Source: Planktomarina temperata RCA23
Lineage (GTDB): Bacteria; Pseudomonadota; Alphaproteobacteria; Rhodobacterales; Rhodobacteraceae
Assembly: GCF_000738435.1 (NCBI RefSeq)
Contig: NZ_CP003984.1
Span: 1,922,001-1,986,000 of the forward strand
Reading direction: 5' to 3'
DNA: 64,000 nucleotides
Positions 10,237 through 16,804 of this stretch are shown piece by piece. Position 1 is the first letter of the stretch. Every line of letters starts with the position of its first letter. The position numbers were made by a program, and so were the translations under genes. The notes below the pieces were generated by a model. The model had not been told where the DNA came from, did no database searches, and saw only the letters and a program-made list of their open reading frames with translations.

Positions 10237-11034
10237 TCACCCTAAGAGTTGGTCCATCGTGATCGATGGCTGTTCACAGCCGGCTTCTCCAACGATTTTG
10301 GCAGGAACTCCGGCTACGGTTTTACAGGGCGGCACCTCATGAAGCACCACGGAGCCTGCGGCAATGCGGCTGCAATGGCCCACTTTGATATTGCCCAGAA
10401 CCTTGGCGCCGGCTCCAATCAAAACACCATCGCCGATCTTAGGGTGGCGTTCATCATCTTGTTTGCCCGTTCCCCCCAAGGTCACCGAATGCAGCATCGA
10501 AACATTGTCGCCCACCACGGCCGTCTCACCAATCACAATAGAATGGGCGTGATCAATCATCAGCCCGCGTCCGATAACGGCTGCGGGGTGAATATCAATG
10601 CCAAAGACTTCAGAAATTCGCGATTGGAAAAAATAGGCCAGATCTTTGCGCCCATCGCGCCAGAGGGCATGGCCCACGCGATAGGCTTGAATGGCCTGGA
10701 AGCCTTTGAAGAATAACAAAGGTTGCGTAAGGTTATGGCAGGCTGGGTCGCGCTCACGCACCGCCATGAGATCCGCGCGCGAATAGGCACCGAGCTCCTC
10801 CGACCGGATGGTATGATCGGCAATTTCGCGCAGCATTTGCTCGGGCATTTCTGCTGAGGCCAGCTTGAGCGCAATGCGGTACGACAGAGCCTGCTCCAAG
10901 CTGCTGTGATGTAAAATGCTGGAGTGGATCATAGCGCCCAAAAGCGGCTCTTGCTCCAATGCGCTTTGCGCCTGCCGCACCATTTCATCCCAAACCGGGT
11001 CGATGGATTTCAAATGCGCTGCTGTCTGTGCCAT
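10237..11034 (-). CDS. cysE: Serine O-acetyltransferase
   Basis: A 265-residue CysE that makes O-acetylserine from serine and acetyl-CoA, the first committed step of cysteine synthesis. The N-terminal helical domain (residues 1-140) contains DPVWDEMV and AYRVGHALW. The C-terminal left-handed beta helix of hexapeptide repeats includes IDHAHSIVIGETAVVGDNV with the catalytic His/Asp, and GGTGKQDDERHPKIGDGV. The ATG at 11034 is chosen over one at 11094 because AGAGGATGAACCC precedes it. The gene borders the GTA remnant. Confidence 0.94.
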   Translation of the reverse strand: MAQTAAHLKSIDPVWDEMVRQAQSALEQEPLLGAMIHSSILHHSSLEQALSYRIALKLASAEMPEQMLREIADHTIRSEELGAYSRADLMAVRERDPACHNLTQPLLFFKGFQAIQAYRVGHALWRDGRKDLAYFFQSRISEVFGIDIHPAAVIGRGLMIDHAHSIVIGETAVVGDNVSMLHSVTLGGTGKQDDERHPKIGDGVLIGAGAKVLGNIKVGHCSRIAAGSVVLHEVPPCKTVAGVPAKIVGEAGCEQPSITMDQLLG

Positions 11035-11131: not shown

Positions 11132-12283
11132 TCAAATCGTGAAACGAAACTTGCGGCGCAGGCCAGGACCAAAACTTTCAGAGAGCTGCGCCACTTGCAG
11201 CTCAAGCAGACCCTGCGCCCCATCAAGCGCCTGCATCGCGGCGCTATAGCGCCATTGCGCTTGATGGACCTCTTCGAGGCGTAGCAGCTGGGCACCCGAG
11301 AATATTTTTACCTGATAGCGTTCCTGCGTTTCGGACAGGGGGATCTCTGCCAAATCCCAAGATGCCCCATCCAAGCGCGCGCGCCTGATCCAGGAAAATT
11401 CTAAATCTGCGCCATCCCATTTTTGCGCCAAATGCACCGGTGCATAGGGGCGCAGCCCGTTGCCAGCAAAGGCTGCGCTGAGCTTGCGATAGCTGTAATC
11501 AGAATAGGGCCGTGCCGCGGGACCGATTTGGAAATACTGCAGGGTATTGCGCCCGGAAGCTGCCAATTCGATCTGTTCCGGCGTGCCATCAAGCAATACA
11601 AAATAGGACCCTGCAGGCCATTGCGCCGGCATCAAAGCGTCACTGCCCAATTGACCGCGCAAGCGGCCCGACAGTTCGTAGCGGCCCGGGGCCACAAGAT
11701 CGGCCGATTGAAACTGGAAGATCTCCCAATTGTCTTGGCTGCCGTCGCCAATCGCAGCCAAATTCGCCCCGGCCAAGAGCGCCTCAGAGGTCACACCCGA
11801 CAGGCTGCCGCGTGTCAGCTCCACCACAAGCGGCGCGCCGTGATCCAAAATTCCCGGCGTTGCAGCGGCCAAAGGCGCCAGTGTAACGCCCAAGACCGCC
11901 GGAGATTTTACCAAAGTGTTGAGCGTATAATCCGCATCATAGCGCGAGCTGTAAACTGCGACAGGCCCGGGCCAAGGCTCCGCGGTTGCGGCGATATATG
12001 GCGCATGTGGCAGCTCATCGCCTGTGATGAGCGGCAAATCCAGGAACAGTGGGAACACTGGCGTAATGGGTGTTGCGGCTGGCAGTTCCAGCGGGTTTTG
12101 TGCCAAGCTCGACCCCTCATAGAGGGTTTCATCGACCCGCACCGCCTGTGCCAATCCCTGATCCCCTTGCTCGAATTGATCGATCCGGTAGGAGGCCAGA
12201 CCGCCCGGCTCTGCCAGTTTGACCACATCCCCGGCCCCCAAATGCCCCAAGGATGGCGGAAGGGCGAAAGACGCGCGGTCGGA
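11132..12283 (-). pseudogene. C-terminal remnant of GTA g15 host-specificity/tail protein gene
   Basis: About 380 codons match the C-terminal end of the GTA g15 protein (rcc01698 family), starting at DRASFALPPSLGHLGAGDVV and ending LRRKFRFTI at the stop. The first ATG is missing: the open frame runs upstream only to a TGA at about 12293, and the only possible starts are TTG codons such as 12250. The upstream two thirds of g15, including its GTA TIM-barrel domain, are lost at a deletion junction with the portal gene near 12272-12283. The remaining frame has no internal stop, so the deletion may be fairly recent, or the fragment may be maintained by chance. Confidence 0.85.
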
Positions 12284-12528
12284 TGGGTATCAAACCTTTG
12301 CTCGGCCGATTGCAAAAGCAAAGGCACCGCAGAGGCCGCCTCTGAGATCAATTTGACAGCACGAAAGCCGACTGGATTGCCTTGAAATCCACTGCGTGTG
12401 ATCGAGACAGCGTCTCGCGCGGACCACACGACACGGCCCGACGAATGATAGGCGATTACCGGTCCTGCGGCAGACGCCTTGGATTCAGTCGCGGGTTTTG
12501 TGGCGGATTTGAACAGATTCAAAACCAT
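12280..12528 (-). pseudogene. N-terminal fragment of GTA portal protein gene (g3)
   Basis: The ATG at 12528 follows ATGAGGAGCCGCCCT, a strong ribosome site. It opens 83 codons matching the start of the GTA portal protein: GRVVWSARDAVSITRSGFQG and NPVGFRAVKLISEAASAVPL are characteristic. After QRFDTHP the homology stops and the frame runs into g15 sequence read in the wrong phase, to a stop at 11908. A chimeric peptide of 206 residues could be made, but its second part is out-of-frame g15. Normal portal proteins of this family are about 390-400 residues. Confidence 0.85.
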
Positions 12529-12638
12529 AGGGCGGCTCCTCATACTATGGCGCGTTCGCCGATTTGAAATCAATTTGAGGCAAATTATTTACAAAGCGGC
12601 GAACAGGGCGTGCGCCACTCTTAATTTTTAGTTAACCG

Positions 12639-14062
12639 TCACAGGCTCCTGATTTGCGGATCAAAAATGGGCTGCGCGGGCGCCAGCATAAGCTCAAAAA
12701 TCGCCCAAACCAAAGCATCCACCCGATCCGGGCTACCCGATCCGCGATATCCTTGATGGGTCATCCGGCACATTTGATCTTCGAGAGCCTGTAGACCCGC
12801 AGCATGTGTCACCCGCCCCTGCTCATAGAGAGCGGCCACAGGTTCGGCCCGCACGGCTTTGCCGCGCGCCGCATGTACCCCGGTAAAGGGAATAAGCGGG
12901 TCCAGGGTCGCAATGATCGTCTTGACCATATCGCCGCCTTGGTTGACCTCAGCCACCAAGCGATCCGCGTGAAACTCCTGCATGGCCGCAATCGCTCTGC
13001 GCGCCCAATCATTGGGAGATTTTGGCTTAAATGACAGATCAGCCAAGACAGTGGCACGCCAAGACTGCGCAGGCCCCTGGGTGCGCGCGCCCACCACCAC
13101 GATCCCGCATTCATCGGAGGATTTGGAATGGGTCACCGGAGGATCCACCGCCACGACAATACGATCAAAGCTATTGAGATCCACCTCAGCAGAGCGGGTG
13201 AAATGCGCATGTGACCAAAGCGCGCCCTCCTCCTGATCCAGCAAGACCCCATCCAACTCCTGTCGGGCGAGCCGGGTGCCGGCATATTTTGCACGCACGT
13301 CTTGCAAGAAAGATTTGGCAAATTGGCGCGATTGGCATCGGTGCTGGCGTGGGTGCTGCGGGTATTGTCGCGCGCAAGGATCTCTTTAAGCGTCGCGACA
13401 TTGCGCGGGGTGGTTGTCACCAATTGCTGCGGATTATCGCCCAAACGCAAAGAAAATTGCAGCATGTCCCAGGCCTCTTGCGGTTTTTTCCACTTGGCCA
13501 ATTCATCCACCCAAGCGCAATCAAACTGCGGTCCGCGCAGGCTTTCCGGATCGGAGGCCGAATAGATTTGCGCCACAGCCCCATTGGGCCAAGTCAATTG
13601 CCGGCGCGTGGCCGACCAATGCGGCCGGCGGTCTGGCGGGGCACAAGCCAGAATGCCGCTCTCGCCAAAGACCATCACCTCACGGGCTTGATCCAAAGTC
13701 TCGCCGACCAGCGCCACCCGCGCGCAGCGGCCCGGCATTTTGGGCCGGCTGCCCTCGACCATCTGACGGATCCATTCCGATCCGGCCCGGGTTTTGCCCG
13801 CGCCGCGCCCCCCCAAGATCACCCAGGTGCGCCAATCACCTTCCGGTGGCAATTGATGCTCCATGGCCCAAAATTCGAACATCCAAGGCAGAGCGCGCAG
13901 CTCATCCTCGGTCAGCTCCTTTAGGAAGTCTTTTTGGACCCTGGGCGCGGCGGAGGCGATCCAAGCGGCGCCCAATTGACTGCCGCATGGCGTCGAAGTC
14001 GATGTCAGTTTCGCCACGGGTTTCTTTTGATTTGGACTCTTCATAAGATAATTTGACCTCAA
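12639..14062 (-). pseudogene. GTA large terminase gene (g2), broken by a one-base frameshift
   Basis: The N-terminal part reads in one frame from about 14062 or 14044 and carries the packaging ATPase: WVILGGRGAGKTRAG (Walker A), VALVGETLDQAREVMVFG, and FDCAWVDELAKWKK (Walker B). Family identity holds through ASTDANRANL near 13322. It then continues one frame over as KSFLQDVRAKYAGTRLARQELDG into the nuclease domain (VAVDPPVTHS, DRLVAEVNQGGD, GSPDRVDALVWA) to the stop at 12639. A single base missing around 13319-13323 explains the shift. Both halves are otherwise clean, so either a recent mutation or a base-calling error is possible. The exact start inside the overlap with g1 is uncertain. Confidence 0.88.
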
Positions 14063-14258
14063 TGTTCAGCAATTGCTGGCGGGCATTGTCTAAGTCTCTG
14101 ACGCATTTCACCAATCTTGCGGTGTCGGCCTCTGTGTCGTATTTGACGGCCTGTAATATCTCGACGATTTCACTGGAGTATTCCGCAACAATCGCCCGAT
14201 ATTTATCTCGCAAAATCACGTCACGCCCGTCGATTGGGACGGGAGTTGATTTTGTCAT
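13902..14258 (-). CDS. GTA g1-like protein (putative small terminase)
   Basis: A 118-residue protein, MTKSTPVPIDGRDVILRDKY to KGADRG, starting at the ATG at 14258 behind GAGGCAGACAT. The C-terminal DFDAMRQSIGRRLDRLRRAQ resembles the end of the small protein encoded just before terL in Rhodobacterales GTA clusters (g1, rcc01682), thought to act as the small terminase subunit. The middle is helical with a heptad-like stretch (LVKCVRDLDNARQQLLNIEVKL). It overlaps the terL start. The gene looks intact, but with capsid and tail genes missing it is probably without function. Identity rests on position and the short C-terminal match. Confidence 0.6.
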   Translation of the reverse strand: MTKSTPVPIDGRDVILRDKYRAIVAEYSSEIVEILQAVKYDTEADTARLVKCVRDLDNARQQLLNIEVKLSYEESKSKETRGETDIDFDAMRQSIGRRLDRLRRAQGPKRLPKGADRG

Positions 14259-14391: not shown

Positions 14392-15543
14392 TTACGGCTG
14401 CCGGGTCGCTTCAATCTTGCGCCATGCCGCGACATTGCGATTATGGTCTTTGAGTGTCACCGCAAAGGCATGGCCGCCTGTGCCGTCAGCCACAAAGAAT
14501 ATGAAGTCCGTGGCTGCGGGTTTCAGCGCCGCCTGCAAGCTGGCCAGGCCTGGGTTGGCAATAGGCGTTGGGGGCAGACCGCGGTTTACATAGGTGTTCC
14601 ACGGGGTATCTTTGCGCAGTTCACTTTTGCGCAGACCCCGTCCCAACGGTGCCTTGCCCCCTGTCACCCCGTAAATAACAGTTGGATCCGTTTGCAGCGG
14701 CATGCCCTTTTGCAAACGATTGGCAAAAACTGAGGCCACGGTGAACCGCTCATCGGCCACACCTGTCTCTTTCTCAATAATGGAGGCAAGGATCAGCAGC
14801 TCTTCCATTGTCTTAACTGGGGTGATGTCGCTGCGCTGTGCCCAAACTTCGTCAAGGCGGCGCTCTTGCGCTTGCAGCATCCGCTCGAGCAGATCTTGGC
14901 GCAGATCGCCTGCTTTGATTTCATAACTGTCCGGGGCCAACAAACCCTCTGCTGGGACCTGTGCTATATCACCGGTCAAAAAGTCGATGGTTTTAAGGGC
15001 CTCAACCACCTGCCAACTGGTCGTGCCCTCTGCGATGGCCAGCCGAATGCGCGTATCGCCTTGCCCAATCACCCGCCGATAGGCTGCCGGTTCTGCCTCC
15101 TCAGCGGGTGTAAAACGCGCAACTTCCGCATAGCTGTTGGACACCGGATCCAATTCACGCACCAAAACGGTGCTGCGCGTCACCCCGACGCGATAAACCA
15201 CCTCAGTGCCACAGGTATTGCGCCCGCTGGTGGTGATTTGATCGGCAATGTCCGCCATAGAGGCCCCCGCCGGGATCAAGAAACTGCCCGCTTTCAGGCG
15301 CGCAGATTTCTCGGTGTAATCGGCGCCGATATTGAACAATTCTTTGCTTCGAACCGCACCCTCATCCCTCAGTTTAACCGCAACTTTCGGCATGGAACTG
15401 CCGGGCTCGACCTTGAGGCAGATCGCCTCTGTCAAGGGACCGGGTTTGTAATACTGCGCTTTGAGAAGCGTCATGACCCCACCAATCAGGAAGAGAAAGA
15501 CGACAATCAAGGTCATTGCATTGGACGCAATGTTTCGCCACAT
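14392..15543 (-). CDS. mltG: Endolytic murein transglycosylase MltG
   Basis: A 383-residue membrane protein of the YceG/MltG family, often mis-named aminodeoxychorismate lyase. One N-terminal transmembrane helix (about residues 8-27), a LysM-like region, then the catalytic YceG domain. EELLILASIIEKETGVADER contains the catalytic Glu, and LQTDPTVIYGVTG and TPWNTYVNRGLPPTPIANPG are signature blocks. It cleaves nascent glycan strands in the periplasm and sets their length. The ATG at 15543 starts one base after the fabF stop, so the two are translationally coupled. Longer in-frame starts lie inside fabF. Confidence 0.93.
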   Translation of the reverse strand: MWRNIASNAMTLIVVFLFLIGGVMTLLKAQYYKPGPLTEAICLKVEPGSSMPKVAVKLRDEGAVRSKELFNIGADYTEKSARLKAGSFLIPAGASMADIADQITTSGRNTCGTEVVYRVGVTRSTVLVRELDPVSNSYAEVARFTPAEEAEPAAYRRVIGQGDTRIRLAIAEGTTSWQVVEALKTIDFLTGDIAQVPAEGLLAPDSYEIKAGDLRQDLLERMLQAQERRLDEVWAQRSDITPVKTMEELLILASIIEKETGVADERFTVASVFANRLQKGMPLQTDPTVIYGVTGGKAPLGRGLRKSELRKDTPWNTYVNRGLPPTPIANPGLASLQAALKPAATDFIFFVADGTGGHAFAVTLKDHNRNVAAWRKIEATRQP

Positions 15544-15544
15544 G

Positions 15545-16804
15545 TTATGCAAATTTCCCGAAAACGACGCTGGCATTCGTGCCGCCAAAGCCAAATGAAT
15601 TTGACAGGGCAACATTGATCTGCCGCTCAACCTTGGCATTTGGCGCCAGATCAATCGGTGTGTCCACCGCGGGATTGTCCAGATTGATGGTCGGCGGGGC
15701 GACTTGATCACGAATGGCCAGAATGCTGAAAATCGCCTCAATCGCGCCGGCCGCGCCCAACAAATGCCCGGTGGATGATTTGGTGGATGACATGGTCACC
15801 CCAGAGGCCGCATCGCCCAATAGACGCTCCACCGCGCTCAACTCAATCGTATCGGCCATGGTCGACGTCCCATGAGCGTTAATGTAGTCAATCGCCGAGG
15901 GCTCCAGCCCCGCATTCTTGAGGGCGGCCCGCATAGACCGCTCCCCGCCCTCTCCGGTTTCGGATGGGGCGGTGATATGATAGGCATCGCCAGACATACC
16001 ATAGCCCAAAACCTCAGCGTAAATTTTCGCGCCGCGGGCTTTAGCATGCTCCAGCTCTTCGAGGACAACAACACCGGCCCCCTCTCCCATCACAAAGCCG
16101 TCTCGGTCAGCATCATAGGGGCGGCTGGCCTTGGTTGGGTCCGATTCTGACTTGGTCGACAGGGCTTTGCAGGCATTAAATCCAGCAATACCAATCTCAC
16201 AGATTGAGCTTTCAGCGCCCCCGGCCACCATAACATCCGCATCGCCAAACATGATCAAACGGCTGGCATCGCCAATCGCATGCGCCCCAGTCGAGCAGGC
16301 TGTAACAACCGCATGGTTCGGACCCTTAAAGCCATATTTGATGCTCACCTGCCCTGAGACCAAATTAATCAAGGCGCCCGGAATAAAGAATGGCGAGACC
16401 CGCCGTGGACCTCTTTTATCGATCAACACGGCCGTCTCGGCAATGGTTTGCAACCCACCAATACCCGACCCGATCATGACACCGGTACGCTCGCGATCCG
16501 CATCTGCCTGCGGCATCCATCCACTGTCCTGCACAGCTTGCTGAGCGGCGGCCATTCCGAAGAGAATGAAATCGTCGATTTTGCGCTGCTCTTTTGGCTC
16601 TAAATAGGCATCACCATTAAAGGTGCCATTCGTGCCATCGCCCAGGGGCACTTCGCAGGCGTATTTCGTAACCACATTGCTGGTGTCGAATTTCTCAATC
16701 ATCCCTGCGCCGGAGTCTCCGGCGAGCAAACGCTCCCAAGTCGCCTCAACCCCATCCGCCAAGGGGGACACCATTCCAAGCCCAGTTACCACGACACGAC
16801 GCAT
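15545..16804 (-). CDS. fabF: Beta-ketoacyl-ACP synthase II
   Basis: A 419-residue condensing enzyme that elongates acyl-ACP with malonyl-ACP. The Cys-His-His triad is visible: VTACSTGAHAIGDA (Cys), INAHGTSTMADT (His) and SSTGHLLGAAGAIEA (His). The C-terminal NSFGFGGTNASVVF is the oxyanion and gating region. The ATG at 16804 is chosen because GGAGATCAAG precedes it. It lies downstream of acpP and upstream of mltG, within the fabD-fabG-acpP-fabF series. Confidence 0.96.
   Translation of the reverse strand: MRRVVVTGLGMVSPLADGVEATWERLLAGDSGAGMIEKFDTSNVVTKYACEVPLGDGTNGTFNGDAYLEPKEQRKIDDFILFGMAAAQQAVQDSGWMPQADADRERTGVMIGSGIGGLQTIAETAVLIDKRGPRRVSPFFIPGALINLVSGQVSIKYGFKGPNHAVVTACSTGAHAIGDASRLIMFGDADVMVAGGAESSICEIGIAGFNACKALSTKSESDPTKASRPYDADRDGFVMGEGAGVVVLEELEHAKARGAKIYAEVLGYGMSGDAYHITAPSETGEGGERSMRAALKNAGLEPSAIDYINAHGTSTMADTIELSAVERLLGDAASGVTMSSTKSSTGHLLGAAGAIEAIFSILAIRDQVAPPTINLDNPAVDTPIDLAPNAKVERQINVALSNSFGFGGTNASVVFGKFA

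Follow-up and report, generated by a model that had tools for sequence, protein, structure and literature searches.

Whether bacteria retain or shed gene transfer agents (GTAs), and for what reasons, is an open question, and the genome of Planktomarina temperata RCA23 raises it at a single locus. In the window (the whole 64,000-nucleotide stretch of DNA that was analysed), pieces from the two ends of a GTA cluster lie between mltG and cysE. What is this locus, when and how often were such clusters lost, and does the same kind of loss recur elsewhere in the family? The loss of the GTA in P. temperata is in itself not new, because it has already been published. According to the passages available to us, RCA23 carries no complete GTA, nor did any RCA genome or MAG yield one (PMC10675870), P. 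temperata is among the roseobacters without RcGTA-like genes (PMC5896138), and GTA systems have been pseudogenised and lost in several alphaproteobacterial lineages, for which the authors suggest recent non-producer lineages (PMC10883770). The genome studied here (G000; a single contig of 3,288,122 bases) shares the absence of a complete GTA with the first two accounts and the loss with the third. However, the passages of the first two describe no remnant, join or decay series, and those of the third no loci, joins or timing. In the literature searched, which consisted of listings and selected passages, we found no account of the anatomy of the remnant or of TerL–g15 fusions.

A GTA cluster reduced to its ends

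In the parts of PMC9552610 seen here, the Rhodobacter capsulatus order is yceG, g1 ... g15, g16, cysE1. The G000 locus resembles this RcGTA (g1–g15, rcc01682–rcc01698) in having yceG upstream of g1 and cysE downstream of g15, with the same order of end genes; in R. capsulatus g16 lies between g15 and cysE1. In contrast to RcGTA, G000 has lost everything from portal codon 84 to about g15 residue 920, and its terL is frameshifted. The features, in their order on the minus strand, are as follows.

14392..15741, minus strand: mltG/yceG, the left flank (PF02618, E = 2e-76); homologues begin about 65 codons inside this ORF
13902..14258, minus strand: open g1-like ORF at the RcGTA small-terminase position (tblastn matches at the corresponding site in G011 and G012)
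13319..14062, minus strand: N-terminal part of terL with Walker A and B motifs (PF03237, E = 1.3e-25; G013 TerL 19–245, 61%)
12639..13307, minus strand: C-terminal part of terL, in another frame (PF17289, E = 8.8e-19; G013 TerL 229–463, 61%)
12280..12528, minus strand: 5′ fragment of the portal gene, 83 codons from the ATG at 12528 (tblastn, three intact congeners, 67–72%)
12271..12283, minus strand: portal/g15 deletion join, out of frame
11132..12271, minus strand: 3′ fragment of g15, with an open frame at 11132–12250 (PF23666, E = 4.6e-35)
10237..11034, minus strand: cysE, the right flank (SATase_N and Hexapep)

This order of a g1-like gene, terL, an 83-codon portal piece and the g15 end between mltG and cysE had been proposed in the original prediction, and ORFs, Pfam, PHROG and the comparison with congeners all bear it out. 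The TerL domains matched are Terminase_6N and Terminase_6C. The g15 fragment matches Rcc01698_C and positions 928–1306 of the 1309 in PHROG 4271, and it is 48–54% identical to the g15 C-termini of six other genomes in which the region is whole. Neither Pfam nor PHROG gave a match for the g1-like and portal pieces, whose identities rest on comparison with relatives. For the g1-like ORF, tblastn finds counterparts in G011 (31% identity, E = 3e-13) and G012 (29%, E = 3e-12), and its first 15 codons are kept in G004, the sister of G000.

Alignment with complete related clusters had been suggested as a check, and tblastn against the intact congeneric cluster of G013 (locus L026) returns the pieces and the join: TerL 19–245 and 229–463 in two frames, portal 4–109 (with some overrun beyond the join) and g15 924–1296. 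We place the join at 12271–12283 because portal homology stops there at ...THP and g15 homology begins with RASFALPPS; these homology limits agree with the 12272–12283 given earlier, and the frames on the two sides differ. TerL had been listed as retained. It is present, but not as one reading frame: it is divided between ORFs at 13133–14062 and 12639–13307, with a previously missed frameshift at about 13307–13361. The interval between mltG and cysE is 3348 bp in G000 vs 14128, 14265 and 14183 bp in G011, G013 and G019, respectively, and therefore 10.8–10.9 kb are missing. Hence, the prediction of a single large deletion holds as to the one join, while its size of 11–12 kb was too large. One internal deletion of ~10.8 kb explains the single join; stepwise loss is also possible.

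Searches across the one-contig genome covered capsid, portal, TerL and g15, and the other head and tail genes, including tape-measure and minor tail genes, were searched for at the locus. No capsid gene (PF05065) was found in the genome, the portal model (PF04860) gave two sub-threshold matches, one of which is the window fragment, and for TerL and g15 there was nothing beyond the window pieces. These searches are in line with the predicted loss of the GTA, and for the four genes searched they speak against a second intact cluster, the finding that had been named as its refutation. Among the features of a functional GTA, G000 has the site between mltG/yceG and cysE and the activator GafA (DUF6456). 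A single-frame GTA-type TerL is absent, as are portal, protease, capsid, head–tail and tail genes at the locus. G000 should thus be unable to make an RcGTA-type GTA, given the join, the terL frameshift and the lack of capsid, portal, TerL and g15 elsewhere.

Homologous remnants with disrupting changes at the ancestral site, as found here, are what defines a pseudogenised cluster, and a dead GTA cluster such as the window locus is nothing unusual. We give a probability of roughly 0.9 to the reading that it is an RcGTA-type pseudogene remnant, recently and mostly independently inactivated and eroding inward between host genes. In this scenario, the cluster would have been functional until recently in the G000 lineage, would then have been inactivated independently of most relatives, and would now be undergoing erasure from within the space between two indispensable host genes. 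The two cluster ends would persist longest, because erasure runs inward between host genes that must stay.

Decay within the genus and the timing of loss

The GTDB genus sample comprises 20 genomes, G000 included; mltG was found in 17 and cysE likewise in 17, with G003, G008 and G015 outside the assessment and MAG incompleteness affecting several congeners. A tree of nine flanking genes (2903 columns) has a clade of 13 that includes G000 (support 100) and a clade of four (support 86). Three of these four (G011, G013 and G019) carry full-length clusters of ~14.1–14.3 kb at the site, and in the fourth, G012, contig ends fall inside the GTA cluster. All 13 assessable genomes of G000's clade are broken or empty at the site, with mltG–cysE gaps (counted up to the first cysE residue in the alignment) of 3348, 1024, 677, 458, 394, 1018, 305, 306, 434, 259, 97, 64 and 64 bp. 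With an intact cluster as the query, GTA pieces were detected in G000, G004, G001, G002 and G007, and with G000's own g15 also in G006; these six are the genomes of the 13 in which the g15 3′ end is detectable. The other seven have no detectable GTA sequence in gaps of 64–434 bp. G001 still holds portal 181–302, which is missing from G000, so that the G000 deletion must postdate the split from G001 unless genes were regained. In G004, g1 codon 15 is joined to about residue 1067 of g15, a state that might reflect a subsequent, more extensive deletion superimposed on that in G000. A collapse of its own is also seen in another genus, in the single-contig genome G022 (L034, G022:C1:1262000-1281500), where TerL 25–373 and g15 286–1301 remain; this genome has a second g15-like gene elsewhere (1316 aa, 32% identity).

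The DUF6456 domain, which we take to be a marker of GafA/GafZ, matched one of 14 control genomes, that of Caulobacter, and is present in nine of the 20 genus genomes. The gafA gene is open in G000, G004, G011, G012, G013 and G019, has a stop in G006, and is in fragments in G001 and G007. In G000 it is an orphan, open ORF at G000:C1:1684567 (L054 2468-3490). Roughly, gafA decay follows cluster decay. Within the genus, the GH108 endolysin family occurs only in G011, G012, G013, G019 and G002; in the last the endolysin gene is open (L063 5705-6298), and the GTA cluster amounts to about the last 45–50 codons of g15.

From these remnants we infer INDEPENDENCE and timing of losses. As a whole, the G000 remnant shows no rate acceleration: G000 accounts for 0.151 of tree length over 872 GTA columns vs 0.166 for cysE in the same six taxa. 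Piece by piece, the share is 0.133 for TerL, 0.162 for g15 and 0.191 for portal, a short piece (77 columns) that takes a slightly larger share than cysE. For the g15 piece, dN/dS between G000 and G004 is 0.24 (0.00–0.21 for the nine flanking genes), with 17.5 nonsynonymous changes against neutral expectations of 29.5, 27.7 and 26.7 under three transition weights (P under 0.001). Of the 16 amino-acid differences between the two copies, two are derived on the G000 side, nine (one of them a stop) on the G004 side and five are ambiguous; taken alone, the contrast of two and nine polarised replacements, with its small counts, does not decide the matter. It is the G004 copy that carries the observed indels. 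Collectively, the rates, the dN/dS and the mutually incompatible remnants suggest recent, partly independent losses, as read from one remnant long enough to measure and from small counts. The data would fit a cluster still working in the G000 lineage after G000 and G004 had separated, in which case the clade would have undergone at least six losses.

Alternatively, the cluster might have been lost once, early, in the ancestor of the whole clade, and slow erosion might have left different pieces in each descendant. We regard this as unlikely, although it accounts for the broken or empty state of all 13 members, and frameshifts and differing deletions are what erosion would give. It also agrees with gafA, where 18 of the 30 changes between G000 and G004 are nonsynonymous (20.5–22.6 expected, P = 0.045–0.2), which is no clear constraint; an unconstrained gafA would be compatible with GTA control having been lost earlier. 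However, the TerL and g15 pieces of G000 do not exceed cysE in rate and still contain long open frames, and dN/dS for the g15 fragment is well below 1.

Recent, mostly independent inactivation also has to be weighed against selection on the remnant itself, that is, on g1, the g15 end or the DNA (e.g., a cysE promoter inside the g15 end). The detectable g15 3′ end in six of the 13 broken genomes would agree with such a function, as would the R. capsulatus cysE1, which has its own transcript according to the passages of PMC9552610 seen. Nevertheless, this alternative is improbable: the g15 ORF of G000 lies in a different frame from the portal start, the sister copy has acquired a stop and indels, and the g15 end is dispensable in three relatives, since only 64–97 bp separate mltG and cysE there. 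That the join and frameshift are sequencing or assembly errors in a strain with an intact cluster is very improbable indeed, as the genome is one contig in which capsid, portal and another TerL were not found, and G004 (98% and 97% protein identity in mltG and cysE) is collapsed too, with a different join. A single genus holds, at one site, a gradation of states from 14-kb clusters over fresh remnants to 64-bp scars, and with the activator decaying in parallel, loss can be dated and counted.

A recurrent TerL–g15 chimera in other genera

In a family sample of 295 genomes, nearly one per genus, g15 was found in 268. Among the best 80 named mltG loci of a longer list, 41 have TerL followed by portal, and in nine TerL is joined at about residue 185 to g15 at about 644. 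The others are five different collapses, four loci with mltG adjoining cysE, three with TerL but no portal in range, ten with nothing within about 6 kb and eight with too little sequence. A full-length match to the chimera occurs in at least 13 of 395 family genomes, plus G089 and G173. In total, the chimera replaces the GTA cluster between mltG and cysE in 23 distinct genomes (L119 and G171 are the same record and count once), with loci as follows.

L076:7621-10137, L081, L091, L104, L109, L114, L131, L142, L148-L161 and L166: TerL–g15 chimera

As in G000, the site is the same, the ends are kept and the middle is deleted. In the chimera, however, TerL to about residue 184–185 continues, in frame, into g15 from about 643–644 (the last ~655 residues), whereas in G000 portal codon 83 meets g15 at about 920, out of frame. 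The join reads W-x-D-E at the end of the TerL part, one codon, then G-C at the start of the g15 part, a pattern (in-frame TerL ..DE / g15 x-GC..) that the G000 join lacks. Of 21 loci examined, with the decayed L109 and L131 left out, the join codon is identical in all 20 that are readable; L159 is not readable in pattern and has the same spacing. The frame is open over 827–904 codons in 16 of the 23 chimeras, broken in six and off the contig end in one, and all 16 open ORFs have Walker A and B motifs. The two chimeras scanned have Terminase_6N (to position 105 of 215), GTA_TIM (204–299 of 299), Phage-tail_3 and Rcc01698_C. The predicted fold is of too low a confidence to be interpreted (mean pLDDT 44). 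Among nine collapses with other joins that were checked for frame, two are open and in frame, the remaining seven being interrupted or out of frame. The in-frame fusions with their own joins are L168 (G053:C2), TerL71/g15 801, and L169 (G244:C1), portal243/g15 993. At L173 (G105:C9:829500-848500), the collapse is confined to the tail end: g13, g14 and most of g15 are missing, and the cluster is kept from the head genes through the early tail genes into part of g12.

The exact recurrence of this fusion is the surprising part, and it lies outside the window. The chimeras are polyphyletic and mostly open. On a tree of TerL plus g15 (19 fused and 10 intact rows), seven state changes are required, five of them forced by well-supported branches, and on an mltG tree (83 rows, 22 fused) 16, of which 12 are forced; these counts are blind to gain vs loss of the fusion. 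Fused and intact loci are sisters on the mltG tree in pairs such as L076/L164, L142/L134 and L091/L136. The fused rows are mildly clustered there (19 of 500 shuffles gave a value as low), and part of the fusion is therefore inherited. Relative to mltG, the g15 part has a pace of 1.38 in fused and 1.42 in intact proteins, and the TerL part 0.72 and 0.79 (15 fused, 8 intact in both comparisons); this equal pace fits either a recent origin or a function.

A tentative reading, which we hold at somewhat less than even odds, is that the family's GTA clusters have repeatedly been turned into an in-frame chimera by the same codon-precise deletion, through site-specific excision or a selected function. 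The causes may be, in order, site-specific excision, selection for the chimera, and the spread of one allele. As to the last, a single fused allele may have spread by recombination, but the sequence around the join shows no clear tract in common: in the 12 adjoining bases, fused loci have an identity of 0.833 to their best intact relative and intact controls one of 0.875, and over the next 27 bases the two are equal (0.827 and 0.828). An AGG codon is more frequent among fused loci (5 of 20 vs 2 of 57; P = 0.011, uncorrected). The join codons match the nearest intact relative's g15 in L076 (with L164) and L161 (with L163), and the relative's TerL in L150 (with L162).

Several other candidates were rejected. 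A short-repeat hotspot does not explain the join, which scores 4–8.5 against 14.5–18.5 for the best repeat in the seven readable of ten intact loci; moreover, 535 to 31,795 of about 0.55–0.62 million in-frame codon pairs in the ten intact loci match equally well or better. The idea that GTA particles themselves spread the deletion alleles was dropped because cells with a defective GTA cluster produce no particles, according to the passages of PMC6209664 considered. As a mobile gene, the fusion is covered to 80% by no plasmid record and by one phage record, at 32% identity. A search of viral contigs for the reciprocal junction gave two chance matches, in an unrelated ORF, and none for the fusion pattern. 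Finally, gafA fails as a marker of a working fusion: all 15 fused genomes have it, but so do all 11 other genomes with partial g15 matches and 4 of 14 without detected g15. An apparent gafA truncation in G348 is a contig end.

GTA-cluster collapse is thus widespread beyond the window, and one join recurs. The recurrent TerL–g15 fusion, of which the literature searched yielded no description in the parts seen, points to a recombinational or selective process. If the tentative reading of repeated, codon-precise deletion is true, either an excision process acts on GTA clusters in this family, or the chimera has a function that selection keeps recovering.
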